Below are positions 1 to 40,806 of a DNA stretch of 40,806 nt, in pieces. The stretch lies in assembly GCA_030618105.1 (NCBI GenBank), contig JAUXED010000010.1, positions 1-40,806 of the forward strand, in the 5' to 3' direction. Position numbers and translations under genes: made by a program. The number at the start of each line of letters is the position of its first letter. Positions within the stretch are counted from its first letter, which is position 1. Source of the DNA: Bacteroidota bacterium. Lineage in GTDB: Bacteria; Bacteroidota; Bacteroidia; Bacteroidales; VadinHA17. The notes beneath the pieces were generated by a model. It had not been told where the DNA came from and ran no database searches. It saw only the letters and a list, made by a program, of their open reading frames with translations.

Positions 1-75
1 GTGGAGAATAAGGGAGTCGAACCCTTGACCTCTAGAATGCAAATCTAGCGCTCTAGCCAACTGAGCTAATCCCCC
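1..75 (-). tRNA. tRNA-Ala (UGC), 3' end at window edge
   Basis: Read on the minus strand this folds as a full cloverleaf: acceptor GGGGGAT, D-arm with AGTTGG loop, anticodon stem CTAGA/TCTAG around loop TTTGCAT (anticodon TGC, Ala), and T-arm with loop TTCGACT. The discriminator A is at position 2, so at most two bases of the CCA end lie outside the window. It follows tRNA-Ile by 11 bases in the 16S-23S spacer, the usual Ile-Ala pair, and the 23S gene should begin beyond the left edge. Confidence 0.95.
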
Positions 76-86
76 CGAAGCTTTTG

Positions 87-160
87 TAGTCCCACCCAGA
101 GTTGAACTGGGGACCTCTACATTATCAGTGTAGCGCTCTAACCAACTGAGCTACGGGACT
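87..160 (-). tRNA. tRNA-Ile (GAU)
   Basis: Minus-strand cloverleaf with acceptor AGTCCCG/TGGGACT, D-loop AGTTGG, anticodon stem CTACA/TGTAG around loop CTGATAA (anticodon GAT, Ile), and T-arm CCCAG/CTGGG. The bases after discriminator A73 read CAA, so the CCA end is not encoded and must be added by CCA transferase. It sits in the 16S-23S spacer directly before tRNA-Ala. Confidence 0.95.
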
Positions 161-197
161 TTGATTATTAATCTCTCAGCCACAAACTCATCTCCAT

Positions 198-262
198 TAG
201 TGCAGCGCTCTAATCCCGATCTTTGGAATTTCTGGTTTTCGGCACCAACTGAGCTACGGGAT
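198..262 (-). pseudogene. Broken tRNA-Ile-like 5' fragment with D-loop insertion
   Basis: Between 16S and tRNA-Ile the minus strand carries a second copy of the tRNA-Ile 5' part. CCCGTAGCTCAGTTGGT (262-244) and TAGAGCGCT (212-204) match the intact tRNA, but 31 unrelated bases (243-213) separate them inside the D-loop. Beyond the D-arm the similarity fades through the anticodon region, and there is no T-arm or acceptor 3' strand. The last six bases of the insert (CGGGAT) are complementary to the fragment's own 5' end (ATCCCG). It cannot fold as a tRNA. I infer a decayed tandem duplication; a role as a spacer hairpin is possible. Confidence 0.75.
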
Positions 263-295
263 TGCTATCCTTCACTCTTATTTAAAAGGTTAAAA

Positions 296-326
296 AAGAA
301 GGGAATCAAAAAGGTTTTATTAGCAT
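296..326 (-). other. Pre-16S processing stem, 3' arm
   Basis: This spacer stretch, about 40 bases past the 16S 3' end, is near-complementary to 1958-1987 upstream of the 16S 5' end. Shared blocks include AAAAGGTTT and TAGCAT, with only a few mismatches or bulges over about 28 bases. In the transcript the two arms would pair and loop out the whole 16S, as expected for an RNase III-type maturation stem. The pairing is seen by eye; cleavage is inferred. Confidence 0.7.
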
Positions 327-364
327 TCCCCCGTAAAGGGGACAGGTAATAAATCTTTCTCCAG

Positions 365-1888
<1,524 letters not shown>

Positions 1889-1957
1889 AAAAAAAATTTA
1901 AATATTTGCTCAAGATTTATTACTCATTCCGAAATAAACAAAGATGCTATTCAAGAT

Positions 1958-1987
1958 ATGCTATTTCAAACCTTTTCAATTCCTCTT
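1958..1987 (-). other. Pre-16S processing stem, 5' arm
   Basis: This is the leader partner of the spacer arm at 296-326. It lies about 70 bases upstream of the 16S 5' end. See the 3' arm entry for the pairing; the two arms would bring the 16S ends together. Confidence 0.7.
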
Positions 1988-1993
1988 CAATAT

Positions 1994-2005
1994 TTTCAAA
2001 GAACA
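1994..2005 (-). promoter_or_regulatory. boxA-like antitermination site
   Basis: On the minus strand this reads TGTTCTTTGAAA, close to the boxA consensus (TGCTCTTTAACA) and matching the TGTTCTTTGAAA form I recall from Gram-positive rRNA leaders. It lies about 20 bases downstream of the proximal promoter's -7 element, so it would be near the very 5' end of the transcript, where NusB/S10 would bind. Function is inferred from position and motif. Confidence 0.6.
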
Positions 2006-2024
2006 TATTAATATTTTTGGATTG

Positions 2025-2056
2025 CAAAGTTAACACCAATTGCTAAACTTTGCAAA
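2025..2056 (-). promoter_or_regulatory. rRNA promoter, proximal (P3)
   Basis: Bacteroidetes-type promoter on the minus strand: -33 TTTG at 2056-2053, a 20 bp spacer and -7 TAACTTTG at 2032-2025. Consensus is TTTG-N19/21-TAnnTTTG, so both elements match fully. Transcription would start near 2018, giving a leader of about 130 bases before 16S. Confidence 0.8.
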
Positions 2057-2187
2057 TAATCCTTCTTAATTATTAAAAGAATTTTTATTTAAAAAAGCTG
2101 CTGCAAGTTTACAAAATATTCCTTTATACTTGCCGCTTTTTTGCCTTTTTTCAGCCTCCAAAAAATTTTTTCAAAAAAACGTGGCTG

Positions 2188-2220
2188 CAAAGATAAAAAC
2201 TTATTTTTTACTACCGCAAA
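2188..2220 (-). promoter_or_regulatory. rRNA promoter, middle (P2)
   Basis: Minus-strand -33 TTTG at 2220-2217, a 21 bp spacer and -7 TATCTTTG at 2195-2188, followed by CAGCC. Both elements match the Bacteroidetes primary-sigma consensus. Confidence 0.75.
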
Positions 2221-2280
2221 CTTTTTTGAAAATATTTTTTCTTTTATAATTCTTTTCAAAAAAATATAAAAATCGGCCTG

Positions 2281-2311
2281 CAAAAATAGACTACATTTCT
2301 AATATTACAAA
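2281..2311 (-). promoter_or_regulatory. rRNA promoter, distal (P1)
   Basis: Minus-strand -33 TTTG at 2311-2308, a 19 bp spacer and -7 TATTTTTG at 2288-2281, followed by CAGGC. Together with P2 and P3 it makes three evenly spaced promoters driving the rRNA operon. A fourth, degenerate -7-like element (TAAACTTG, about 2115-2108) lies between P2 and P3 without a usable -33. Confidence 0.75.
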
Positions 2312-2349
2312 CCTGGAAATTAAAAAATCGGCAGTCAGCATTTTTCCTT

Positions 2350-2458
2350 CTATTCCCTTTATTCCCTCTTTTCCACTTTTCCATCTTTCTCTTCCATTAT
2401 TCCCTCTATTCCCTCTAATCCCTCTATTCCCTCTAATCCCTTTATTCCCTCTATTCTA
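2350..2458. repeat. 9-bp tandem array (ATTCCCTCT)
   Basis: Six consecutive 9-bp units ATTCCCTCT or AATCCCTCT run from 2399 to 2452. Degenerate units extend back to about 2350 and one partial unit follows. The array occupies the gap between the rRNA promoters and the glycosyltransferase gene. I see no gene in 2312-2584. Confidence 0.9.
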
Positions 2459-2584
2459 TTCCTAAATAGGTAAAATTGAAATAATCCTTATCTTTATAAA
2501 TTATTTTTTTGCTTGTTTTACAGTGCAATCCCTAAGAATGAAAAGTTATGTCCTGTCATTTAGTCTATATATATTATATCAACA

Positions 2585-3319
2585 ATGAATAATTGCCTGG
2601 TTATCGTGCCGACATACAATGAAAAGGAGAATATTGATAAAATAATTCCTGCTATCCTTTCCCAGCCAATTCCTGTTGAGATTCTGATTGTCGATGATAA
2701 TTCACCCGATGGGACTGCCAACATTGTCAGGGAACTGCAAAAAAATAACAAGAAAATACACCTGATTACCAGAAAAGGGAAACTTGGACTGGGTACTGCT
2801 TATCTTACCGGTTTTAAATGGGCACTGGATCATAAATTCGATTATATTTTTGAAATGGATGCCGATTTTTCTCATAATCCCAACGACTTGCCACGACTAT
2901 ATGATGCAGCTGCTCACAACGGTGCCGACCTGGCTATCGGATCACGTTACAAATCGGGTGTTAATGTTGTAAACTGGCCACTCGGAAGAGTTTTAATGTC
3001 TTATGCCGCATCTATATATGTGAGGCTCATTACAGGCATGAATATTAAAGATACTACAGCAGGTTTTAAATGTTACAAAAGCAAAGTTCTTAAAACCATC
3101 AACCTTGATAATATTAGTTCAAAAGGTTATGCTTTCCAGATCGAAATGAAATTCATCGCCTGGAAGTTCGGTTTTAATATTATTGAAGTTCCTATTGTTT
3201 TTACCGACCGGAAATTCGGCTCTTCAAAAATGAGTGGTGGAATTTTTAATGAAGCACTGTGGGGAGTAGTGAAGATGAAATGGAAAAGTTTTTATACCGA
3301 TTATAAACTTAATTCCTGA
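2585..3319 (+). CDS. Polyprenol-phosphate mannosyltransferase-like GT2 glycosyltransferase
   Basis: At 244 residues this is a single-domain GT2 enzyme of the dolichyl/polyprenyl-phosphate mannose synthase family. It is expected to move a sugar from a nucleotide sugar to a polyprenyl phosphate at the inner face of the membrane. Motifs seen are the N-terminal VPTYNE (8-13), DDNSPDGT (37-44), the metal-binding DAD (92-94), GSRY (119-122), and TTAGFK (157-162), typical of DPM1-type enzymes. There is no C-terminal membrane domain, as in the short soluble class. Mannose as donor sugar is inferred from overall similarity; another hexose is possible. It is separated from dihydroorotase by two hairpins and is probably monocistronic. 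Confidence 0.85.
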   Translation: MNNCLVIVPTYNEKENIDKIIPAILSQPIPVEILIVDDNSPDGTANIVRELQKNNKKIHLITRKGKLGLGTAYLTGFKWALDHKFDYIFEMDADFSHNPNDLPRLYDAAAHNGADLAIGSRYKSGVNVVNWPLGRVLMSYAASIYVRLITGMNIKDTTAGFKCYKSKVLKTINLDNISSKGYAFQIEMKFIAWKFGFNIIEVPIVFTDRKFGSSKMSGGIFNEALWGVVKMKWKSFYTDYKLNS

Positions 3320-3342
3320 AAACAGTTGTTTAAATGAACCGA

Positions 3343-3385
3343 GCCCCGAAAAAAATCGGGGCGAGCTATCCCGACATTGTCGGGA
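3343..3385. repeat. Pair of GC-rich hairpins
   Basis: Two inverted repeats lie back to back. The first is GCCCCGA/TCGGGGC with an A6 loop (3343-3362); the second is TCCCGAC/GTCGGGA with a 3-base loop (3369-3385). No T-run follows, so these are not classic intrinsic terminators. They could still end or stabilise the glycosyltransferase message, or be a dispersed palindromic element. Confidence 0.7.
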
Positions 3386-3421
3386 CAGACTATCTGACAA
3401 TTAAAAATCAATTATAAACAG

Positions 3422-4768
3422 ATGAAACCTCTCCTGATACATGAAGCTACCATAGTAAATGAGAATAAAAAACAAACAGGTAGTGTTCTGATAAGTGAAG
3501 GGAAAATTGATTCCATATATTATAAGAATGTACCCCGCGATGTTATCCAATATTCTGAAACAATTAACGCAAAAGGGAAATGTCTGTTTCCCGGTATTAT
3601 TGATGAACATGTTCATTTCCGCGAACCGGGATTAACACATAAAGCCGATATTCTTTCTGAATCAAAAGCCGCTGTAGCCGGTGGGGTTACTTCATATATG
3701 GAAATGCCAAATACTATACCCCAAACTATAACCCGTCAGGCACTGGATGATAAGTTAAATACAGCTTCAGGGAAATCATTAGCCAACTATGCCTTCTATA
3801 TTGGTGCAACTAACGATAACCTGGATGAACTGTTAAGAACCGATCCAACAAAAACATGCGGCATCAAAGTGTTTATGGGAGCATCCACCGGAAATATGCT
3901 GGTAGACAATCCCGATACATTAAAGCATATTTTTTCAGAGGTAAAAATGCTGATAGCAATCCATGCTGAAGATGAAGAGATAATTCAAAAAAACCTTCAA
4001 CTCTACAGGAAGCGATATAGTGATAATATCCCTGTATATCTTCATCCTGAGATCAGATCAGAACAAGCCTGTTACAAATCAACTGTAAAGGCTGTTGAAC
4101 TGGCTAATAAATACAATACACGATTGCATATCCTTCATCTATCTACAGCAAGAGAATTGAAGTTACTGGAAGGTCGTCCATATTCAAAAAATAAACTTAT
4201 TACCGGTGAGGTTTGTGTTCATCACTTGTGGTTTGACGATAGTGATTATAAGTTACTGGGCACACTGATCAAATGGAACCCTGCCATTAAAACCCGAAAG
4301 GACCGTGAAGCTTTACTAGAGGCTGTAAAATCAAATAAAATTGATACTATTGCAACTGACCATGCACCACATACATGGAATGAAAAAAACAGGGATTATT
4401 TACATTCTCCTTCTGGTGGACCAATGATCCAGCATTCACTCCCGGCTATGCTTGAGATGCACAACAGAAACCTGATTGATCTGGAAACAATTGTTGAAAA
4501 AATGTGCCATGCTCCCGCAAAAATATTTAGTGTCGAAAAGCGGGGTTTTATACGTGAAGGATACTGGGCTGATCTTGTTTTAGTTAACCCTGACAAACCC
4601 TGGAGAGTTTCAAAGGATAATATATTATATAAGTGTCGCTGGTCACCGCTCGAAGGTCAGGAGTTTAAAAACAGTATTGAAAAAACTTTTGTTAACGGAG
4701 AATTGGTCTATGATAATGGCACTATAAATGAAGATATCAGAGGTAAAGCATTGACATTTAACAGGTAA
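3422..4768 (+). CDS. pyrC: Dihydroorotase
   Basis: A 448-residue dihydroorotase of the amidohydrolase superfamily (long, class I-like type). It closes carbamoyl aspartate to dihydroorotate, the third step of pyrimidine synthesis, in the cytosol. The metal-binding signature DEHVHFREPG is at 61-70 (H63, H65), GIKVFMG near 143-149 would supply the bridging lysine, and TDHAPH at 312-317 gives the catalytic aspartate D313. Length is normal for the family. No other pyrimidine gene is adjacent, so it is a stand-alone locus here. The paralogue allantoinase is a less likely alternative. Confidence 0.92.
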   Translation: MKPLLIHEATIVNENKKQTGSVLISEGKIDSIYYKNVPRDVIQYSETINAKGKCLFPGIIDEHVHFREPGLTHKADILSESKAAVAGGVTSYMEMPNTIPQTITRQALDDKLNTASGKSLANYAFYIGATNDNLDELLRTDPTKTCGIKVFMGASTGNMLVDNPDTLKHIFSEVKMLIAIHAEDEEIIQKNLQLYRKRYSDNIPVYLHPEIRSEQACYKSTVKAVELANKYNTRLHILHLSTARELKLLEGRPYSKNKLITGEVCVHHLWFDDSDYKLLGTLIKWNPAIKTRKDREALLEAVKSNKIDTIATDHAPHTWNEKNRDYLHSPSGGPMIQHSLPAMLEMHNRNLIDLETIVEKMCHAPAKIFSVEKRGFIREGYWADLVLVNPDKPWRVSKDNILYKCRWSPLEGQEFKNSIEKTFVNGELVYDNGTINEDIRGKALTFNR

Positions 4769-4811
4769 TAAAGAGGGCTAATATTTGCAACGAAATTAAA
4801 TTCCAATACAT

Positions 4812-5336
4812 ATGTATATGAAAACATTAATTATTATTCTGCTTATTGCCGGCATAACAGCCTGCAAGCAACAAAGCAGTGAACCATCTATTACAGGAAA
4901 GGCTAAAACTCTGAAGGATACAACTCTATTAAACTTTCAAACAATTGCTGAATCCATCAGGTACGATGTGGTTATTAAAAATCCCGACCCTGCTAACGAA
5001 TGGACTGAAACATGTCTGAAAGGATTTGACAGGGAAAAACTTGTTGGTGAGGTTTATAAAGCGATTTATGCCGGAAAAGTTAAAGCATACGATTATTACA
5101 CTGATGAGCCTATGTCTGTTAAACAGGTAAATGAGATCGAAAAACAAGCTGAATCTGACGGAGCCGAGGTAGCAAAAGTCCAGTTTCTTGAAGACTGGTA
5201 TTTTGATCCTGTAACTTTTAATCTATATAAAAAAGTGCATTTTATTATGCTGGCATATGAAATTCTTGATGAAAAGGGTAACGCTAGAAGTTATAAAGCT
5301 GCATTTTATGTGCCTTTTGGATTGGAAATGGAATGA
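4812..5336 (+). CDS. Unknown lipoprotein
   Basis: A 174-residue protein with a lipoprotein signal: a short basic start, a hydrophobic run and a lipobox-like GITAC ending at Cys18, after which the export signal should be removed. The start could equally be the ATG two codons later (4818), which gives a more typical MKT start. The mature part is charged and rich in K/E/D, with an EDWYFDP stretch near residue 132 followed by K-x-V and a hydrophobic strand. That pattern vaguely recalls the C-terminal part of GldN/PorN-type proteins, but I cannot assign a family. Expected location is the periplasmic face of a membrane. The stop codon lies inside the first unit of an 8-bp tandem array. Confidence 0.75.
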   Translation: MYMKTLIIILLIAGITACKQQSSEPSITGKAKTLKDTTLLNFQTIAESIRYDVVIKNPDPANEWTETCLKGFDREKLVGEVYKAIYAGKVKAYDYYTDEPMSVKQVNEIEKQAESDGAEVAKVQFLEDWYFDPVTFNLYKKVHFIMLAYEILDEKGNARSYKAAFYVPFGLEME

Positions 5337-5370
5337 TAGAATGATAGAATGATAGAATGATAAAATGATT
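5332..5370. repeat. 8-bp tandem array (AATGATAG)
   Basis: Three perfect AATGATAG units, then AATGATAA and a partial unit. The first unit contains the TGA stop of the upstream lipoprotein gene, so gain or loss of later units would not change the protein. Confidence 0.9.
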
Positions 5371-5414
5371 AAATAGGAGAACAAATCAATTTTAATTAAA
5401 ACTATAACTTTTAT

Positions 5415-5452
5415 CATTTAAGCATTTACACATTTAAGCATTTAAGCATTTT
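5415..5452. repeat. 8-bp tandem array (CATTTAAG)
   Basis: Four units of CATTTAAG (one reads CATTTACA) and a partial fifth. This is the second octamer array in the same 178 bp gap between the lipoprotein and DUF2148 genes. Confidence 0.85.
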
Positions 5453-5514
5453 GTAATAAAACAAAGTACGATAATATAAGCTTAATCTAGAATAACTTAA
5501 ACTCCTACAGAATT

Positions 5515-6048
5515 ATGTCTATTACTAAAGAAGAACAGTTTAAGTCGGAAAGTGTAAAAAACATTGCAAAGAAAATGATCCTTGCTGCACGAACCGCGCC
5601 CAAAGCCCGGGGGCGGGATTATATTTCACTGGCACTGGCTGATGGTAAAGATTTACAGATAATTGCAGACAAAATGAAAGAGATCGGAAAACGAAAGGGG
5701 CAGCACTTTTTTGAGAGAGATGCAGGAAATATGCTCCAGTCTGAAGTGCTTGTAATGATGGGAACAAGTATCCAATCGCTTAAATTGGATTGCGGTATGT
5801 GCGGACATAAAGATTGTGCTGAAAAAGATAAGCACCCTGATATACCGTGTGTTTTTAATACCGGCGACCTGGGAATTGCAATGGGTTCTGCAGTAAGCAT
5901 AGCTATGGATCACCGGATCGATAACCGGATACTTTACTCTGCTGGACAGGCAATCCTGGAACTTGAATTGCTTGGTAAAGACACACGAATTGCTTACGGA
6001 GTACCTCTTTCAGCATTGTCAAAGAATATCTTTTTTGACAGGAAATAG
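5515..6048 (+). CDS. DUF2148 ferredoxin-like domain protein
   Basis: A 177-residue protein that I recognise as the DUF2148 family: an N-terminal helix rich in K/E and AARTAPKARG near 24-33, then the cysteine cluster CGMCGHKDC near 98-106 with a further Cys near 116 (PC), which could hold an iron-sulfur cluster. The C-terminal half is hydrophobic and Gly/Ala-rich but has no clear signal peptide, so a soluble cytosolic protein is likely. No enzymatic role is established. Its neighbours (lipoprotein, aspartokinase) do not form an obvious pathway with it, and it faces aspartokinase tail to tail. Confidence 0.8.
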   Translation: MSITKEEQFKSESVKNIAKKMILAARTAPKARGRDYISLALADGKDLQIIADKMKEIGKRKGQHFFERDAGNMLQSEVLVMMGTSIQSLKLDCGMCGHKDCAEKDKHPDIPCVFNTGDLGIAMGSAVSIAMDHRIDNRILYSAGQAILELELLGKDTRIAYGVPLSALSKNIFFDRK

Positions 6049-6085
6049 CTGTGAAGAGCAAAGAGTAAGGAAAATAGATATAATT

Positions 6086-7354
6086 TTATAACTTATAACT
6101 CTTCAATACTAATTGTGCTGTAAGGCGGCTCATTTGTTCCAGAAGGACTTTCCTGCCGCGTGTCATTTTATCAATAGCTTCCCGGTTATAATATCGTATA
6201 GTAACCAGTTCAACGTCCTCATTGAACCGGACCTCAAAATCCTTTTTCAGCTCATCAATAACTTTGTAAACCTGTCCGTTAGTCTGGTTTACACATACCG
6301 TTATGCTTACCGCGGAATTCTGGATCAGGTTTACGCTGATACGGTACGTATTAAACAGGCTGAAAATACGCCCAAGGTTTTCTTCTACAATAAAAGAATA
6401 GTCTTTTGGTGCCACAGACACAAGTATCTGGTCAGGTTTGATAACATAAATAGGTACAAGATCCAATGGATGGTCAACCAGGTGAATGATAGTTCCTGGT
6501 TCATCCGGCGAGTGAAAAGATTTTACATACAGGGGAATATTTTTGTTATGAAGAGGTTTGATCGTTTTAGGATGGATCACTTTGGCACCGTAATAAGCCA
6601 TTTCAAGCGCTTCATGGTATGACAACTCATCCAGTTTCTCAGCATCGGGAAAAACAACAGGATCGGCACTCATCACACCGGGAACATCTTTCCATATCAC
6701 CACCTTTTCGGCATCAAGCACATGAGCCAGGATAGCCGCTGTATAATCTGATCCTTCCCTGCCCAGGGTAGTGGACAACCCGCCGGCAGTACCACCGATG
6801 AATCCCTGGGTTATCAATCTTTCAGACCCGGGATTGTTAAATTCTTTATGAATAAGACTGCCCGACACCTGCCAGTCAACATGCGCATCCCTGAAAATAC
6901 TGTCAGTTTTTAAATACTCCCTAATATCCATCCACCTGACGGGTATTTTATTTTTCATTAACCATGAGGCGATGATCCGTGTTGACCACAGTTCACCCCT
7001 TGAAACAATCTGATCATAAGTCTGGTCATAACCGGATGAAGGAGACTTTTTTATAAATTCCTCCAAATCACGGAATGAGTTATTCAATTCCTTTCCTGTT
7101 TCATTATCTGTTGAACCGAAAAGATCGTTAACAATAATTTGATGAAATTGTCTGATGGTTTCAAGTTCCTTCGCAGTTTTAGTTATATTCCCGTCCAGGT
7201 AATGTTTAACAACCCTTTCGAGTGCATTGGTTGTCTTACCAAGGGCAGATATCACCACAACAAGATTTTCAGGAGCTTTCTTTACAATGTCAGTGATGTC
7301 ACGGATACCTTCCGCGTTACCAAGTAAAGAACCGCCGAATTTGTAGATAAGCAT
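6086..7354 (-). CDS. lysC: Aspartokinase (monofunctional)
   Basis: Aspartate kinase, which phosphorylates aspartate at the head of the Lys/Thr/Met/diaminopimelate pathway. The start is set at the ATG giving MLIYKFGGSLL, because family members begin with the KFGG nucleotide-binding strand; an in-frame ATG 22 codons upstream adds an unrelated hydrophobic stretch. GREGSDYTA and WKDVPGVMSADP in the middle are kinase-domain signatures. The C-terminal third looks like tandem ACT domains used for feedback control. There is no fused homoserine dehydrogenase. The pathway feeds the diaminopimelate that MurE in this window appears to use. It is divergent from fbp. Confidence 0.9.
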   Translation of the reverse strand: MLIYKFGGSLLGNAEGIRDITDIVKKAPENLVVVISALGKTTNALERVVKHYLDGNITKTAKELETIRQFHQIIVNDLFGSTDNETGKELNNSFRDLEEFIKKSPSSGYDQTYDQIVSRGELWSTRIIASWLMKNKIPVRWMDIREYLKTDSIFRDAHVDWQVSGSLIHKEFNNPGSERLITQGFIGGTAGGLSTTLGREGSDYTAAILAHVLDAEKVVIWKDVPGVMSADPVVFPDAEKLDELSYHEALEMAYYGAKVIHPKTIKPLHNKNIPLYVKSFHSPDEPGTIIHLVDHPLDLVPIYVIKPDQILVSVAPKDYSFIVEENLGRIFSLFNTYRISVNLIQNSAVSITVCVNQTNGQVYKVIDELKKDFEVRFNEDVELVTIRYYNREAIDKMTRGRKVLLEQMSRLTAQLVLKSYKL

Positions 7355-7537
7355 ACAATGATTTTTTGTAAAATTAACCAGTAATTCCAGTGGTACAAAG
7401 AAGAACATAAAGTTTTTCAAAAAAAATTTATTTCTTCACTTTAAATATTAAGATTTAGCATCTTACAATAACAGAAATCCCTATATTTACTCTTGCAAAG
7501 CAAGAACCAAAAAACGGATAATTAATAATTATATAGG

Positions 7538-8545
7538 ATGAAAAGTTACAGCTTTACAACCCTTAATGAATTCATAGTAGCAAGACAAAAGGAATTTCCT
7601 TATGCCAAAGGGGAATTGTCCAGTCTTCTGCATCACATGAGTATTGCCGCCAAGATGGTGAATAAAAAAGTGAATAAAGCCGGTCTGGTTGATGTCCTTG
7701 GTGAATCGGGGGATGTTAATGTTCAGGGTGAAGATCAAAAAATACTTGATGTCTTTGCAGATGAACAGTTTATTGCCGCGCTAAAAGCCAGTGGGGAATG
7801 TTGCGGGCTGGTAACTGAAGAAAACAAGGAACAGATCGTCTTTTATGATGAAATGGCTCGTGACGGGAAATATATATTTTGCATGGATCCCCTGGATGGC
7901 TCATCCAATATTGATGTGAACGTTTCTATCGGTACAATTTTTTCAATCTACCGACGCCTGTCAGACAGGGGATCAAAAGCCATAATGGATGATTTTCTGC
8001 AGCCGGGAACAGAACAGGTTGCCGCGGGATACATAATTTACGGCTCGTCAACTGTACTTGTATTTACCACAGGTTATGGGGTGAACGGATTTACTCTCGA
8101 TCCCTCTATCGGGGAGTTTTGCCTTTCACACTCCAACATAAAAACTCCTGAAGATGGGACTTTATACTCAATAAATGAAGGTAATTATCTTAGATTTCCT
8201 GACGGTGTTAAGCAATACATTAAATATTGCCAGGTAATGGATGAAAAATCCAACAGACCATACACCTCCAGATATATAGGTTCGCTTGTAGCAGACTTCC
8301 ACAGGAACCTTATTAAAGGGGGAATTTTTATTTACCCTGAAACAGAAAAAGATCCGAATGGTAAATTACGACTGGTTTATGAATGTAACCCTATTGCATT
8401 TATTGCCGAACAGGCAGGCGGAAAAGCAACAAACGGTAAACAAAGGATCCTCGAGATCAAGCCGGACTCCTTCCACCAGCGAACCCCTTTCTATACAGGA
8501 TCCCGAATGATGGTTGAGAAAGCAGTTGAGTTTCTTGGTGATTGA
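7538..8545 (+). CDS. fbp: Fructose-1,6-bisphosphatase, class I
   Basis: A 335-residue FBPase of the classical type, hydrolysing fructose 1,6-bisphosphate in gluconeogenesis in the cytosol. The metal and catalytic motif [18 protein letters not shown] is near 118-135, and VTEEN near 90 supplies the upstream acidic ligand. [12 protein letters not shown] near the C-terminus matches the conserved end of the family. Length is normal. It has its own upstream region of about 180 bases shared with divergent aspartokinase, with a possible -7 element TATATTTA at 7482-7489 but no clear -33. A small CTTGC/GCAAG hairpin follows at 7493-7505. Confidence 0.93.
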
Positions 8546-8582
8546 TACAGGTCTTTTTTTAACTTTCAGATTTGTTTAAACA

Positions 8583-36395: not shown

Positions 36396-36600
36396 TTTGT
36401 TAATAACTTTCGTCAAAATTTCCTATTTTTTATCATTTAATCATCTCCTCATTGCAACACAATTCCTCAACTCTTAACAATGAGAAAGTTTATTTGTTGA
36501 TTTGTTGATGAGTGTATTTGTAAGATTTAATAATGATAAACATCTTAACTTCTCAACTCCTAAACTTATACCCTTATAAACTTTTCATCACCACATCATC

Positions 36601-36660
36601 TCATTATCTCATTACCTCATTACCTCATTACCTCATTACCTCATTACCTTATTACCTTAT
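36601..36660. repeat. 8-bp tandem array (TCATTACC)
   Basis: Seven TCATTACC-type octamers (five perfect) followed by a partial one, in the 424-base gap between mraZ and the acyltransferase gene. The preceding 30 bases contain degenerate CATCA/TCATC units. Apart from the MraZ boxes and this array I see nothing coding in 36323-36746. Confidence 0.9.
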
Positions 36661-36746
36661 TTATTATTTTGCCGGATTTTTGTATATTTTTACAATCATT
36701 AACCATATGCTCTTTTAGCATGACCCATAGGAAATAAAATTCAAAA

Positions 36747-37610
36747 ATGAGAAAGGAAGAAAAACGAACTGAGGCATTTTTTATTGATATTGAGAAGGTA
36801 ATTTCAGATAAAAATCCACGGTTACTTAAATTGTTACCAGGATTTTTGATCCGTTACATGAAAAAGATCATCCATCAGGATGAGCTTAATGAATTCCTTA
36901 AATTACATGGAGATTTGGCGGGTCTTGATTTTATCCGTGAGGGTTTAAAATTCATGGAAACAAATTATGAAGCGAAAGGATTGGAAAATTTACCTAAGGA
37001 AGGACGGTATTTATTTGCATCGAATCATCCATTGGGGGGACTTGACGGGTTAATTTTTATCCACGAAGTAGGCAAAATATGGCCCCGGCTAAAATTTCCC
37101 GTCAATGATCTTTTAATGAATATAAAAAATCTCGATCCCATTTTCCTTCCCATAAATAAACATGGAAAACAGGATAAGCAAGCTGTTTTACAAATTGAAA
37201 AATCATATGCTTCAGATGATCAAATCCTCTATTTCCCTGCAGGTTTATGTTCCAGAAAAAAGAAAGGGAAAATTGAAGACCTTGAATGGAAAAAGCATTT
37301 TATTACCAAAGCCGTAAAACATAAAAGGGATATTGTCCCGATTCATTTTACAGGCCGCAATTCCAATTTCTTTTATAATCTCGCCAACCTTAGGGTTTTG
37401 TTGGGAATAAAATCAAATATTGAAATGGTTTACCTGGCTAATGAAATGTTTAAACAAAAAAACAGGAAAATCATTGTCAGGTTTGGAGAACCAATATCAT
37501 ACAGAATGTTTGACAAAACATTATCACCTGAAGCATGGGCGGTTAAGGTAAAAAAGATCGTATATTTTCTTGGTGAAGGAAAAAATATCTCTTTAAATAC
37601 TGTATCATGA
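36747..37610 (+). CDS. PlsC-family acyltransferase, GlsA-like (glycine lipids)
   Basis: A 287-residue 1-acylglycerol-phosphate acyltransferase-type enzyme. Motif I is NHPLGGLD (93-100), with H94 and D100; this is an H-x5-D spacing rather than the common H-x4-D. FPAGLCSRK (about 160-168) corresponds to the FPEG substrate motif, and DIVPIHFTG follows. The next gene is a GNAT-type N-acyltransferase. In Bacteroides the adjacent pair GlsB (N-acylation of glycine) and GlsA (O-acylation) makes glycine lipids, so this is probably the O-acyltransferase working at the inner membrane. Ornithine lipids are an alternative product. A weak purine stretch TAGGAAA precedes the start. Confidence 0.8.
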   Translation: MRKEEKRTEAFFIDIEKVISDKNPRLLKLLPGFLIRYMKKIIHQDELNEFLKLHGDLAGLDFIREGLKFMETNYEAKGLENLPKEGRYLFASNHPLGGLDGLIFIHEVGKIWPRLKFPVNDLLMNIKNLDPIFLPINKHGKQDKQAVLQIEKSYASDDQILYFPAGLCSRKKKGKIEDLEWKKHFITKAVKHKRDIVPIHFTGRNSNFFYNLANLRVLLGIKSNIEMVYLANEMFKQKNRKIIVRFGEPISYRMFDKTLSPEAWAVKVKKIVYFLGEGKNISLNTVS

Positions 37611-37637
37611 TTATTACCTGAATGACTAAAATTTCTG

Positions 37638-37645
37638 TATATTTG
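37638..37645 (+). promoter_or_regulatory. Candidate -7 element before glsB-like gene
   Basis: TATATTTG matches TAnnTTTG exactly, 28 bases before the chosen ATG. No TTTG is seen at the -33 position, so the gene may also be read from the upstream promoter. Confidence 0.45.
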
Positions 37646-37673
37646 GGTTTCAATAAAATAATTGATTATTTCC

Positions 37674-38621
37674 ATGGAAGCTATTATTCCTTCAATACCG
37701 CGAGAAAAACTAATTAAAGAACTAGTGCCGGAACGGTTTGTACGTAAAACCAATTACGGGAACAATGAAATTTATATTTGCACTCACCATGATTCCCCTA
37801 TGCTCATGCAGGAGGTTGGCAGGTTAAGGGAAATAGCCTTCAGGCTCGCGGGAGGAGGTACAGGGAAAAAGATTGATATTGATGAAATGGACACCCGTGA
37901 AAATCCGTATGAACAATTAATTGTTTGGAATCCGGAAGATCAGGAGATTTTAGGGGGTTATCGTTTTTATAAATGCATGGATGCGAAAAAGGGTGATTTT
38001 GATATTGATAAATTATCAACATCTCATTATTTCAATTTCTCTGAAAAATTCAAGAAAACTTATCTTCCTCACATGATTGAACTGGGTCGTTCCTTTGTGC
38101 AACCTTTTTCTACTTCAGGTAAAAGAAGAAAAAGCTTATTTGCTCTTGACAATCTCTGGGATGGTTTAGGAGCACTTGTAATTGACAACCCCGGAATGCG
38201 TTATTTCTTCGGAAAAGTAACCATGTATCCGCATTTCGACAGGTTTGCAAGGGATATGATCCTATATTTTCTTTATAAATATTTTGGAGATCCTGAAAAA
38301 CTGGCAACTCCTATTAATCCTATGCCTCTTGACCTTGAAAGAAAGGAGATCACTTCTATATTGACCGGCAAAAATTACATCGAAGATTACAAGTTGCTTT
38401 CCCAACAGGTACGAAAATTGGGTGAAAATGTCCCGCCTCTAATTAACGCTTATATGAACTTATCCCCAACAATGAAGACCTTTGGTACTATTATTAATAA
38501 TGATTTTGGCGATGTAGAAGAAACCGGGATAATGATCACGCTCAAAGACATGTATATCTCGAAAGTGAACAGGCATCTGGCTTCTTACCGTGAAGATTAC
38601 CAGTTACCTTCGCATGAATAA
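37674..38621 (+). CDS. GNAT-like N-acyltransferase, GlsB/OlsB-like
   Basis: 315 residues from the ATG at 37674. A TTG four codons earlier is possible but would lie only about 16 bases after the candidate -7 element. The region VGRLREIAFRLAGGGTG (about 44-60), LGGYRFYKC and IELGRSFVQP (about 130-139) are typical of the OlsB/GlsB family, which joins an acyl-ACP-derived 3-hydroxy fatty acid to an amino acid. With the PlsC-like gene 63 bases upstream it should make an N,O-diacylated amino-acid lipid, glycine being the Bacteroidetes substrate. The C-terminal half has a further conserved region (PINPMPLDLERKE) of unknown role. Confidence 0.82.
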   Translation: MEAIIPSIPREKLIKELVPERFVRKTNYGNNEIYICTHHDSPMLMQEVGRLREIAFRLAGGGTGKKIDIDEMDTRENPYEQLIVWNPEDQEILGGYRFYKCMDAKKGDFDIDKLSTSHYFNFSEKFKKTYLPHMIELGRSFVQPFSTSGKRRKSLFALDNLWDGLGALVIDNPGMRYFFGKVTMYPHFDRFARDMILYFLYKYFGDPEKLATPINPMPLDLERKEITSILTGKNYIEDYKLLSQQVRKLGENVPPLINAYMNLSPTMKTFGTIINNDFGDVEETGIMITLKDMYISKVNRHLASYREDYQLPSHE

Positions 38622-38800
38622 CACCTACTGGTTACTGGTTGCTGGTTATGAAGCTTTTCATATTTTTCTTTACTTCATCCTTCATCAATTATCCTTCATC
38701 GTTCCAAATGGTTTCAGGTTTAAAGTTTCAGGTTTCGGGTTTCTTAACTTCAAACATTCTTCAAACCTTAAACCTCAAACATTCTTATAACTTTTCCCTT
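38622..38800. repeat. Degenerate low-complexity repeats
   Basis: A run of short imperfect repeats: ACTGGTT/GCTGGTT near 38627-38648, TTCATCCTTCATC near 38674-38700, and GTTTCAGGTTT near 38710-38745 followed by complementary AAACATTC and AAACCTTAAACC stretches. Such text-like intergenic sequence is common in Bacteroidetes. I see no gene between 38622 and 38950. Confidence 0.6.
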
Positions 38801-38896
38801 TATTCAATATTTTCATAAAAAAACAAAAAACACTTGACAAATAAATTATTCAGAGAACATCTATAATATTACAATATAAAAAACCTTATTTATAAT

Positions 38897-38926
38897 TTGT
38901 CTAAATAAAAAATTGTTTTTACTTTG
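38897..38926 (+). promoter_or_regulatory. tetR promoter
   Basis: TTTG just after position 38896, a 20 bp spacer and TACTTTG ending at 38926. The latter is one base shorter than TAnnTTTG. The operator-like site begins six bases further on and would cover the transcription start, which fits autorepression. Confidence 0.55.
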
Positions 38927-38931
38927 CAAAT

Positions 38932-38950
38932 AGAAACAGTGTTCGTTATT
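38932..38950 (+). promoter_or_regulatory. TetR operator, site 1 (autoregulation)
   Basis: AGAAACA-G-TGTTCGT is an imperfect palindrome, and its right part TGTTCGTTATT is identical to site 2 at 39577-39595. It ends directly at the tetR ATG. I infer that the regulator represses its own gene. Confidence 0.65.
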
Positions 38951-39559
38951 ATGCAGATAAAAAAAACAGACATACGCAAAGTAATTTTAGAAGTTTCCGG
39001 AAAAGAATTCCTGGAGCATGGTTTTAAGGATGCTTCAATGCGCACCATTGCTAAAAAATCAGACGTTAGTTTAGGTAATATTTACAATTACTTTAAAAAT
39101 AAAGATGAAATTTTTACTCAAATTCTTTCAGTTCCTGTTTCATTATTGAATAAAGTAAATAATCTTTTTAATGATGAATACTTTTTTGATATTGAGAATA
39201 TAAGAAACGGAAAAATAAAACAACTAAAATTTACGTACAGCATTAAGTTTATTTGTAATTATCGGGATGAACTTAAATTGCTGTTATTTAAAGCACATGG
39301 TTCATCACTTCATGATTTTAAAGATAATTGGATAGATAAGAATACCGAAGCAAGTATAGAATGGTTAAAAAAATATAATAATATTCATTCAAAAAAAGTT
39401 CAAGCATCAGAGTTCTTTATTCATTATCTTAATTCGTCTTATGTAAATTTTATTACTGAAATTCTAATGCACGATATCCATAAAAATAAAATGATAGAAT
39501 ATTTAAAAGAGTATTTCGAATACTCTTTTCATGGATGGCAAAAGGTTATAGAAAAATAA
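38951..39559 (+). CDS. TetR/AcrR-family transcriptional regulator
   Basis: 202 residues from the ATG at 38951. A TTG nine codons earlier overlaps the promoter and operator and is rejected. The N-terminal 55 residues are a TetR helix-turn-helix: GKEFLEHGFKDASMRTIAKK then SDVSLGNIYNYFKNKDEIF (37-55). The rest is an AT-rich-coded, Lys/Asn-heavy helical ligand domain without recognisable similarity. Ligand is unknown; membrane lipids or a hydrophobic compound would fit the membrane genes it seems to control. Shared operators before this gene and before the next one support local control. Confidence 0.88.
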   Translation: MQIKKTDIRKVILEVSGKEFLEHGFKDASMRTIAKKSDVSLGNIYNYFKNKDEIFTQILSVPVSLLNKVNNLFNDEYFFDIENIRNGKIKQLKFTYSIKFICNYRDELKLLLFKAHGSSLHDFKDNWIDKNTEASIEWLKKYNNIHSKKVQASEFFIHYLNSSYVNFITEILMHDIHKNKMIEYLKEYFEYSFHGWQKVIEK

Positions 39560-39576: not shown

Positions 39577-39595
39577 ACGAACAATGTTCGTTATT
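39577..39595 (+). promoter_or_regulatory. TetR operator, site 2 (downstream genes)
   Basis: ACGAACA-A-TGTTCGT is a perfect 15-bp palindrome about a central base, followed by TATT as in site 1. It lies 37 bases before the first gene of the cassette and 17 after tetR. A TTTG at 39565-39568 just upstream and a T/A-rich -7 region just downstream suggest it sits inside a promoter. Confidence 0.75.
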
Positions 39596-39621
39596 AATTT
39601 AATCAAATAACAATTAAAAAC

Positions 39622-39626
39622 GGAGG
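39622..39626 (+). promoter_or_regulatory. Strong Shine-Dalgarno
   Basis: GGAGG ends five bases before the ATG at 39632. Strong sites like this are not seen before the other genes of the window. Confidence 0.75.
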
Positions 39627-39631
39627 TTAAA

Positions 39632-40012
39632 ATGACAAACAGATTTAAAAATTTATCAATCGAAACTCAGGCAGCTATTGCCTTAATGCTTATTCAACTG
39701 GCACATAAACTGGTAGCTGAAGTACAGAGTACCATAACAATGGTTGGCGTATTTAATCACTGGAAAGTATATGCCGTTCTTTTACTCGCCGGATTATATG
39801 TTGTCGCTATAATATTATGTTTATGGCAAAAAAAACCGGGTTTTATAATTGGTATGGTATTGGGCATTGAGATAGTTTTACAGCCACTTATTTTCCATGT
39901 TTTAGCGGGAATACCAAAGGATCCGCAGTATTATATTCTGTTCCCGATACTGCAGGGAATTTTAGTGTTTTATTTCTGCAGACTGGGATATAAAAAGGTA
40001 GAAGAAGAATAA
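39632..40012 (+). CDS. Four-helix membrane protein of unknown function
   Basis: A 126-residue protein with about four transmembrane helices (roughly 13-30, 47-66, 70-93, 99-117), a basic loop QKKPG after helix 2 and an acidic/basic tail KKVEEE. I do not recognise a family and no catalytic motif is visible. It is the first gene of the TetR-controlled cassette and lies three bases before the membrane methyltransferase, so it may be a subunit or a substrate-binding partner. Start chosen by the strong ribosome-binding site. Confidence 0.75.
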   Translation: MTNRFKNLSIETQAAIALMLIQLAHKLVAEVQSTITMVGVFNHWKVYAVLLLAGLYVVAIILCLWQKKPGFIIGMVLGIEIVLQPLIFHVLAGIPKDPQYYILFPILQGILVFYFCRLGYKKVEEE

Positions 40013-40015
40013 ATT

Positions 40016-40576
40016 ATGACTTTAATACCTGAATTTGAAATTGGTTTGTGGAATGGCTGGATTCCATTATGTTTGTTTTATTTAATATTTGGCATCCTAC
40101 TTATATCTTTTCCAAAGGATGTTGTGAAAAGACTTTATGATAGATCCTACTGGAGTAAAAAGCGAATAGTTTTAATTATTATTGGAAAATTATTAGCATT
40201 TGCTTATTTAATTCTAATAATTTTTACCCCATTAAAAATCGGATTTTTTATTTTCATCATTGGGATTACTATTTATGCCCTTGGCTTGGTAGGATTCGTT
40301 ATTGCTTTATTTAATTACAAAAATACATCAATCAGCCAGCCTGTTACTAGAGGACTCTATAGAATATCACGCCATCCACAGATTCTTACATTATTAATTT
40401 TATATTTTGGGATTTGTATTACTATAGGCTCATGGCTTATTTTATTAATGTTTTTTATATTTTCAGTATTTAATCACTTTAGAATTTTAGCAGAAGAAAA
40501 AGCTTGCTTAGAGCTATATGGTGATTCGTACCATGAGTATAAAAATAAAACGCCAAGATATTTTTTATTTTTTTAA
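40016..40576 (+). CDS. ICMT/PEMT-like membrane methyltransferase
   Basis: A 186-residue integral membrane protein with about five helices. The C-terminal half has the SAM-binding pattern of isoprenylcysteine carboxyl methyltransferase and phospholipid methyltransferase families: GLYRISRHPQ (113-122), an EE pair (160-161), YGDSYHEY (168-175) and a final PR. In this fold the RHP...EE residues hold the SAM cofactor at the membrane surface. The substrate could be a lipid, an isoprenoid or a small thiol/amine. It starts three bases after the preceding stop and is followed by a soluble methyltransferase. Confidence 0.82.
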   Translation: MTLIPEFEIGLWNGWIPLCLFYLIFGILLISFPKDVVKRLYDRSYWSKKRIVLIIIGKLLAFAYLILIIFTPLKIGFFIFIIGITIYALGLVGFVIALFNYKNTSISQPVTRGLYRISRHPQILTLLILYFGICITIGSWLILLMFFIFSVFNHFRILAEEKACLELYGDSYHEYKNKTPRYFLFF

Positions 40577-40577
40577 T

Positions 40578-40584
40578 AAGGAGA
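40578..40584 (+). promoter_or_regulatory. Strong Shine-Dalgarno
   Basis: AAGGAGA seven bases before the ATG at 40592; second strong site in this cassette. Confidence 0.75.
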
Positions 40585-40591
40585 CCCAAAA

Positions 40592-40806
40592 ATGAAAGAT
40601 AATAAAAGAATAAAAAAAGAAAGAAAATACTGGGATAAGTTTAGTTCTAAGTTTGATAAACGAAAAAAGAAAGAATGGAAAGTTTACGAATCGCTATTGT
40701 TCAATAAAATAGCAGATAATCTGGATAAAGGTAATACTGTATTAGAGGTTGCTTGTGGTACAGGACGTGTTACCCTGGAGATATCTAAACAGGCAAACAA
40801 GGTTTA
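40592..40806 (+). CDS. SAM-dependent class I methyltransferase, cut by window edge
   Basis: Only the first 71 codons lie inside the window. The N-terminus is lysine-rich (MKDNKRIKKERKYWDKFSS), then a helix, and SAM motif I reads VLEVACGTGRV (50-60), the standard Rossmann methyltransferase loop. Such YWDKFS...FD beginnings are common in UbiE/PmtA-like enzymes, so phospholipid N-methylation is possible, but the substrate region is missing. It follows the membrane methyltransferase by 15 bases with a strong ribosome-binding site. Confidence 0.8.
   Translation, partial: MKDNKRIKKERKYWDKFSSKFDKRKKKEWKVYESLLFNKIADNLDKGNTVLEVACGTGRVTLEISKQANKV

Follow-up and report, generated by a model that had tools for sequence, protein, structure and literature searches.

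A TetR-linked cassette of an unnamed membrane protein and two methyltransferases in a Bacteroidales bacterium

RhlM of Paraburkholderia kirstenboschensis is described in PMC11069360 (2024) as the first characterized bacterial member of the large ICMT-type class of membrane methyltransferases. According to this paper, it methylates the carboxyl group of an amphiphilic rhamnolipid, and a His and a Glu of the enzyme contact SAM. For a second member of the class, Ma-ICMT of Methanosarcina acetivorans (PDB code: 4a2n), the same source states that the methyl acceptor has not been determined. In phospholipid synthesis, Cho2 and Opi3 methylate phosphatidylethanolamine stepwise, as two enzymes (PMC12139422).

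Here we analyze a cassette at the right end of a stretch of 40,806 nucleotides (hereafter the window) from a Bacteroidota bacterium. Its membrane enzyme is like RhlM in being a bacterial, ICMT-class, integral-membrane SAM methyltransferase encoded in a small cluster. The SAM-contacting His and Glu described for RhlM probably correspond to H120 and to E160 or E161 here, as judged from the motif rather than from an alignment with RhlM. However, RhlM is encoded together with rhamnolipid biosynthesis genes, whereas the cassette has a TetR-family regulator, a membrane protein of an unnamed family (mem) and a second methyltransferase, with no substrate-making gene recognized. With Cho2, Opi3, PEMT and bacterial Pmt, as far as these are described in the source above, the cassette shares the Pfam PEMT family and, in principle, the possibility of stepwise methylation by two enzymes, but the gene context differs and we found no sign of phosphatidylethanolamine as its substrate.

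Layout and composition of the cassette

The gene order at the right end of the window is glsA, glsB, a gap, tetR, mem, PEMT and the 5' part of a soluble methyltransferase gene. The features of the cassette are as follows.

38896–38926, + strand: possible Bacteroidota-type promoter of tetR, TTTG-N19-TTACTTTG, one mismatch to the consensus
38932–38951, + strand: proposed TetR operator, copy 1, overlapping the tetR start codon by one base
38951–39559, + strand: tetR, TetR-family regulator, 202 aa, PF00440 above cut-off
39577–39596, + strand: proposed TetR operator, copy 2, with the perfect palindrome ACGAACA-A-TGTTCGT at 39577–39591
39622–39627, + strand: Shine-Dalgarno site GGAGGT of mem
39632–40012, + strand: mem, multi-pass membrane protein of an unnamed family, 126 aa
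40016–40576, + strand: PEMT/ICMT-type integral-membrane methyltransferase (PEMT), 186 aa, PF04191 above cut-off
40578–40583, + strand: Shine-Dalgarno site AAGGAG of the soluble methyltransferase
40592–40806, + strand: class I SAM-dependent methyltransferase, N-terminal 71 aa, open at the contig end

A first-pass annotation of this DNA had described a packed trio of a membrane protein and two methyltransferases behind a TetR gene, and this arrangement holds: the three ORFs (39632–40012, 40016–40576 and 40592 to the contig end) lie tightly packed on the same strand downstream of tetR, with 3 bases between the mem stop codon and the PEMT start. The window is one whole contig of a 184-contig genome. 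A genome of its family encodes a protein identical to one from Bacteroidales bacterium UBA2198 (rows L003 and L098), which assigns the host to Bacteroidales. The contig stops at the last base of the window, so the cassette may extend beyond it. A DNA query for a rightward extension returned no overlapping contig, and no lone C-terminal methyltransferase half is present among the 14 PF13649 matches of the genome, none of which starts past profile position 16. The full gene order, which the annotation had proposed to seek in other genomes, was absent from every other locus examined. An RNA element was rejected, as Rfam gave no match. Phage cargo was considered and rejected (PEMT had no phage match; PHROGs assigned it to a family of unknown function, and mem reached E 0.7). 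Anti-phage defense was likewise rejected, the PADLOC mad2 match of the soluble methyltransferase (21.5 bits) being taken as a generic SAM motif.

Directly to the left of the cassette lie the adjacent glycine lipid synthesis genes glsA and glsB (36747–38621). Both pass their NCBIfam cut-offs, glsA (36747–37610) with 387 bits to GlsA against 260 and glsB (37662–38621) with 467 bits to GlsB against 300. The 329 bases between glsB and tetR are AT-rich, repeat-rich and of low complexity; five short arrays with a 7-base unit lie upstream of tetR at 38626–38832. Upstream of glsA, at 36585–36661, there is a tandem array of the 8-base unit TCATTACC in 9.6 copies.

As the background for composition, we took 155 ORFs from 20 stretches of this genome, 235 kb in total. 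Coding had been called very AT-rich. This is true of tetR and PEMT, whose GC content is below that of all 155 background ORFs, and of the soluble methyltransferase (3rd percentile), but not of mem (30th percentile). Foreign codon use, a proposed sign of transfer, was not found: once amino acid content is allowed for, the codons used are in keeping with the genome, with typicality at the 99th percentile for TetR, the 97th for the soluble methyltransferase, the 39th for mem and the 34th for PEMT. Strong Shine-Dalgarno sites are present before mem and the soluble methyltransferase, but PEMT has none. Thus, sites of at least 6 bases precede two of the three cassette genes, compared with 4 of the 155 background ORFs and none of the 31 remaining window ORFs, tetR and PEMT being counted among the 31. 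The enrichment against the 155 has a Fisher p of 0.0036, for a claim that was picked after the sequence had been seen.

TetR and its proposed operator

The regulator carries the TetR_N helix-turn-helix (PF00440, 43 bits against a cut-off of 24). Control by TetR is the part of the first-pass annotation that is best supported by the sequence. A 17-base element, AACAnTGTTCGTTATTA, lies before tetR at 38935–38951 and before mem at 39580–39596, with 16 of 17 bases identical, and an ungapped match of this quality was equalled in 8 of 2000 Markov simulations. The mem copy of the element contains half of the perfect palindrome ACGAACA-A-TGTTCGT; copy 1 of the operator is an imperfect palindrome. No further site with up to two mismatches to the palindrome occurs in the window or in the 235 kb genome sample. 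By themselves, the palindrome (191 of 5000 simulations as good) and the shared 12-mer (a length of 12 reached in 179 of 5000) are weak, and aligning the two window upstream regions locally with gaps gave no significant score (203 of 2000). On both strands, terminator scoring also rates the palindrome as a weak hairpin. The Bacteroidota promoter consensus that we used is TTTG-N17-23-TAnnTTTG. Taken alone, the tetR promoter candidate is weak, since 11% of simulations yield one at equal stringency.

The operator claim rests on the 17-base ungapped match together with a cross-species scan. A pattern built from the two window copies alone was scanned over 120 bases before six TetR relatives. The window TetR is about 33% identical, over its full length, to the TetR proteins of two Prevotella records (L041, Prevotella nigrescens, and L042) and of one human faecal record (L180). 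Sites precede all three of these, with 4, 3 and 3 mismatches, and were matched in 70, 13 and 7 of 5000 simulations, respectively. Three more distant relatives have no such site (L181, 1425; L043, 4828; L044, 1805 of 5000), where the L043 scan starts at residue 12 of the match and so is part coding and covers less true upstream DNA. In local alignments, the mem upstream region scored against L041 and L042 at levels reached in only 3 and 6 of 2000 simulations. Gapped alignments were not significant for the tetR copy against L041 (986 of 2000) or L042 (205 of 2000), or for L180 against the mem region (224 of 1000). Because the element is shared by both window promoters and sites are kept before the three closest TetR relatives examined, it probably belongs to TetR, and we propose it as the operator.

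The related regulators have the following cargo. The TetR relative of L041 precedes two ABC exporters and an MMPL transporter (by annotation), and that of L042 precedes a TonB-dependent receptor. In L180 (3424–8176), TetR is followed by an LCM-type methyltransferase, an ABC exporter and a class I methyltransferase, and then by a truncated ORF that, by eye, resembles another ABC exporter. The L180 record is filed as phage but, by eye, looks bacterial rather than viral. L041 and L180 are like the cassette in having a related TetR and a similar upstream element, and L180 also in its two SAM methyltransferases. They are unlike it in having ABC exporters, none of which occurs here before the contig end, and in that no PEMT or mem was recognized at either. 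Because of the cargo of these relatives, we favor an inducible response over a housekeeping role, and the TetR protein may sense a foreign or membrane-active compound. The window TetR has no likeness among the 2431 ORFs of 80 PEMT loci (phmmer, E up to 10); thus, TetR control of a PEMT gene has been seen once.

The two methyltransferases and the mem family

PEMT passes the Pfam cut-offs of PF04191 (PEMT; 43.6 bits against 25) and PF06966 (DUF1295; 23.3 against 20.4), and it misses those of true ICMT, both in Pfam (PF04140, 22.8 against 24) and in NCBIfam (isopcys_mtase, 31 against 160 bits). Its AlphaFold model has a pLDDT of 92.0, and the nearest solved folds are ICMT (PDB code: 5v7p) and Ma-ICMT (Foldseek probability 1.00, with no E-value below 0.001). 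Ma-ICMT is also the one PDB sequence match (E 2.5e-5); by fold it ranks second (probability 1.00, TMq 0.64, E 7.2e-3), but it is only 20% identical over the fold. The SAM-site motif of the PEMT/ICMT class, RHP...EE, is present as R119-H120-P121 and E160-E161. R119, P121, E160 and E161 are invariant in 18 aligned rows, and position 120 is His in nine rows and Asn in the other nine. Residue 122 is Gln in the window and in four Asgard rows and differs in the other 13. Sequence, residues and the predicted fold agree in placing the protein in the PEMT/ICMT class.

We built a quick maximum-likelihood tree from 103 rows that had been picked out with two short peptide patterns. In it, PEMT joins proteins of Thorarchaeota, Hermodarchaeota and Lokiarchaeota (SH-aLRT 99), and the 26 rows from its own GTDB family fall elsewhere. 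The closest relatives by identity are fragments from an Aegiribacteria contig (63% over 70 residues) and an Anaerolineae contig (57% over 83), which were left out of the tree for their short length. Among full-length sequences, the best relatives found are archaeal. A PEMT-type match occurs in 94 of 117 family genomes, the own genome included, and the best-scoring non-self match is 38% identical. No mem or similar TetR is present in the flanks examined of the Asgard relatives, of which L060 has no upstream flank. Since PEMT groups with Asgard archaeal proteins and apart from its own family, its horizontal transfer is likely. The proposal that the cassette was transferred is supported for PEMT and probably for mem (see below), but not by way of codon use.

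These relationships bear on phospholipid head-group methylation, in which both enzymes would methylate phosphatidylethanolamine to its N-methyl forms or to phosphatidylcholine, like Cho2, Opi3 and PEMT or bacterial Pmt. PF04191 is the phospholipid methyltransferase family, and the pair of Cho2 and Opi3 is a precedent for two enzymes acting in steps. However, the closest solved relatives of PEMT, by fold and by sequence, are of the ICMT type, the archaeal origin of its best full-length relatives points away from this pathway, and the 71 residues of the soluble enzyme give no Pmt-specific match. Induction by a TetR ligand would also be unusual for a housekeeping lipid. We consider this explanation unlikely.

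The third ORF probably encodes the N-terminal part of a class I SAM methyltransferase (UbiE/Methyltransf_25-like). It falls under every Pfam and NCBIfam cut-off because the ORF is truncated at 71 aa, but a profile built from the full-length methyltransferases of L170, L171 and L173 gives it 50 bits. We noticed no PEMT-type neighbor of its relatives in L170–L173, and none is annotated in six plasmid contexts, so the enzyme appears to be a generic one. Its family, which is a broad one, adjoins PEMT in L118 and L123.

Membrane-plus-soluble methyltransferase pairs recur. A class I methyltransferase lies within 1.5 kb of PEMT in 12 of the 80 PEMT loci, and the density of such genes is 18 in 215 kb at less than 1.5 kb from PEMT compared with 8 in 327 kb beyond 2 kb (binomial p 0.0022). 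Without the three loci used in profile training, the counts are 15 near and 6 far (p 0.0032). Methyltransferases that look alike by eye end 17 bases before PEMT in L063 (Thermoplasmatales), and 855 and 47 bases before it in L093 and L116 (both Dehalococcoidia). In L118, a rumen Bacteroidetes contig, genes for an ATC_hydrolase protein and an LCM-type methyltransferase come after those for PEMT and the soluble methyltransferase. By eye, PEMT, methyltransferase and ATC_hydrolase (2402–7567) come after ribosomal protein genes there, through an insertion or a misassembly. As read by eye, L123 (Dehalococcoidia, 3255–8562) holds PEMT, several class I methyltransferases and flavodoxin-like proteins, and one of its methyltransferases resembles one of L127. 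Pairs of full-length PEMT-type genes, arranged head to tail and 29–84 bases apart, were observed in eight of the 80 PEMT loci (L065, L068, L070, L081, L088, L091, L092 and L093), mostly from Dehalococcoidia and other Chloroflexota.

The mem protein has no significant match in Pfam (none better than E 0.4), NCBIfam (searched with the window protein only), PHROGs or PDB. It had been annotated as a four-helix protein. The AlphaFold model, built from two rows, has four long helices and one short one, at a low mean pLDDT of 57.9. A hydropathy scan gives three membrane segments for the window protein and three or four across the family. Identity with DUF6326 was rejected (hhalign probability 0.5% over 19 columns against three DUF6326 proteins). 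The likeness to this family is that of a small membrane protein near methyltransferases, and we found no relation: an Acaryochloris plasmid (L178, 233–6136) carries, by annotation, three DUF6326 genes near two class I methyltransferases. Four mem relatives were found, scattered over phyla:

L139: genome G592 of the same order, 39–41% identity
L127: Guaymas spirochaete, 25–28% identity
L144: Aegiribacteria, 39% identity
L145: Methanosarcinales genome, 32% identity

The mem proteins of G592 and Aegiribacteria are 75% identical across phyla, which suggests transfer of mem. In the own family the gene occurs in 1 of 117 genomes (the own only). A search of the order gave 4 of 344, namely the own genome, G592 (E 2e-20) and two weak matches dropped for stop codons, and a profile search of the order gave 2 of 393, again the own genome and G592. 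Only G592 itself has it in the family of G592 (1 of 4), and only G873 itself in the phylum of G873 (1 of 392). The own phylum gave 8 of 395 at E up to 0.01, and the seven non-self matches (E 0.0017–0.0099) were judged to be chance, three with stop codons and four inside frames of 444–903 residues. Searches of contig, viral contig and plasmid collections gave no match. Among the ORFs of the 80 PEMT loci, L127 matched at E 7.5e-7, and a weak match in L074 (0.0095) was dropped.

A methyltransferase adjoins mem in four of the five loci: the window, L139, L127 (on both sides) and L144. In L145 there is none, and an ArsR-type regulator overlaps the mem relative. The L127 locus, which was found through its PEMT gene, has that gene about 3.4 kb from mem; one strand (1–5051) carries a methyltransferase, mem, a methyltransferase, polyketide-cyclase-like, transglutaminase and (by eye) MBL-fold genes, a methyltransferase and PEMT. 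Upstream of mem in G592 (L142, 8350–8862), a membrane protein of 170 aa carries the motif CINCYYWGKTC; at E 0.001, Pfam gave it no match. Of 40 genomes with PEMT relatives, 3 have mem, whereas in the remainder of the order 1 of 392 does (Fisher p 0.0028; 2 of 39 and p 0.023 without L127, which was known beforehand), where the 40 genomes stand for 40 of the 80 PEMT loci and habitat and lineage confound the comparison.

Proposed function and alternative explanations

These neighborhoods also bear on whether the cassette is a unit at all. It could be a set of four unrelated accessory genes at a transfer-prone site, of which only tetR and mem, or none, work together. The lack of a conserved full order, neighbors that vary among the loci viewed, the rarity of mem in the family and the absence of such a TetR at the 80 PEMT loci would fit this. 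However, the tight packing on one strand with 3 bases between mem and PEMT, one operator-like element for both tetR and the operon, and the recurrence of methyltransferase neighbors at mem and at PEMT argue against it, and we regard it as improbable.

Another alternative is that methylation makes small thiols or metal(loid)s volatile or less toxic and that mem is the exporter. There is a weak match to the methanethiol S-methyltransferase MddA (22 bits against a cut-off of 270), and the ArsR-type regulator that overlaps mem in L145 has, by eye, a cysteine-rich end. However, matches to NCBIfam methyltransferase families are far under cut-off and no metal transporter or reductase was recognized in any ORF between 34 kb and the window end, which makes this explanation quite improbable. 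The weakest alternative is methyl-esterification of the glycine lipid, in which the enzyme would cap the free carboxylate of the GlsA/GlsB acyloxyacyl-glycine lipid as RhlM, of the same class, caps the carboxylate of rhamnolipid (PMC11069360); although glsA and glsB end 329 bases before tetR, we give it very little credence, since PEMT probably came from elsewhere, a low-complexity gap separates the units and the neighborhood has been seen once, so that the adjacency may be chance, and since the main text of an aminolipid review that mentions GlsB does not contain the word methyltransferase (PMC11631085).

The best explanation, which we put at about an even chance, is a module that is induced by a ligand and adds methyl groups to a hydrophobic or amphiphilic compound. 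In such a module, the TetR-type repressor would bind one element before tetR and one before the operon of mem, PEMT and the soluble methyltransferase, keeping both off, until it is released by a small and most likely hydrophobic ligand. The membrane-embedded SAM methyltransferase could then reach substrates in the bilayer. The operon would also supply the soluble SAM methyltransferase, and mem would probably anchor, present or move the substrate. By analogy with RhlM, the substrate is probably hydrophobic or amphiphilic. The product would be a methylated compound of this kind, either a toxic incoming amphiphile that is disarmed or a lipid of the cell that is altered under stress. A relay of both methyltransferases on one substrate is possible. 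We infer that horizontal transfer brought in the cargo genes, which came to lie behind a regulator and operator of Bacteroidales type.

A bolder reading would make this an undescribed, horizontally mobile membrane-methylation system of anaerobic bacteria and archaea, consisting of mem with membrane and class I methyltransferases, in which a two-enzyme relay on a new family of membrane scaffolds rewrites a bilayer amphiphile on demand. Here it would be wired to a Bacteroidales TetR and operator, and its target may be the neighboring glycine lipid. We think that this is rather unlikely.

The enzyme and regulator families of the cassette are known; its membrane family is unnamed, and the combination was seen at no other locus examined. 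The first-pass view of it as a candidate for an undescribed system agrees with our literature search, in which the leading titles, drawn mainly from open papers, held no account of such a cassette. A cassette with a predicted switch, an operator and partner genes would give a handle on the roles of ICMT-type enzymes. In addition, the mem family is a marker gene for seeking similar clusters in archaea and bacteria.
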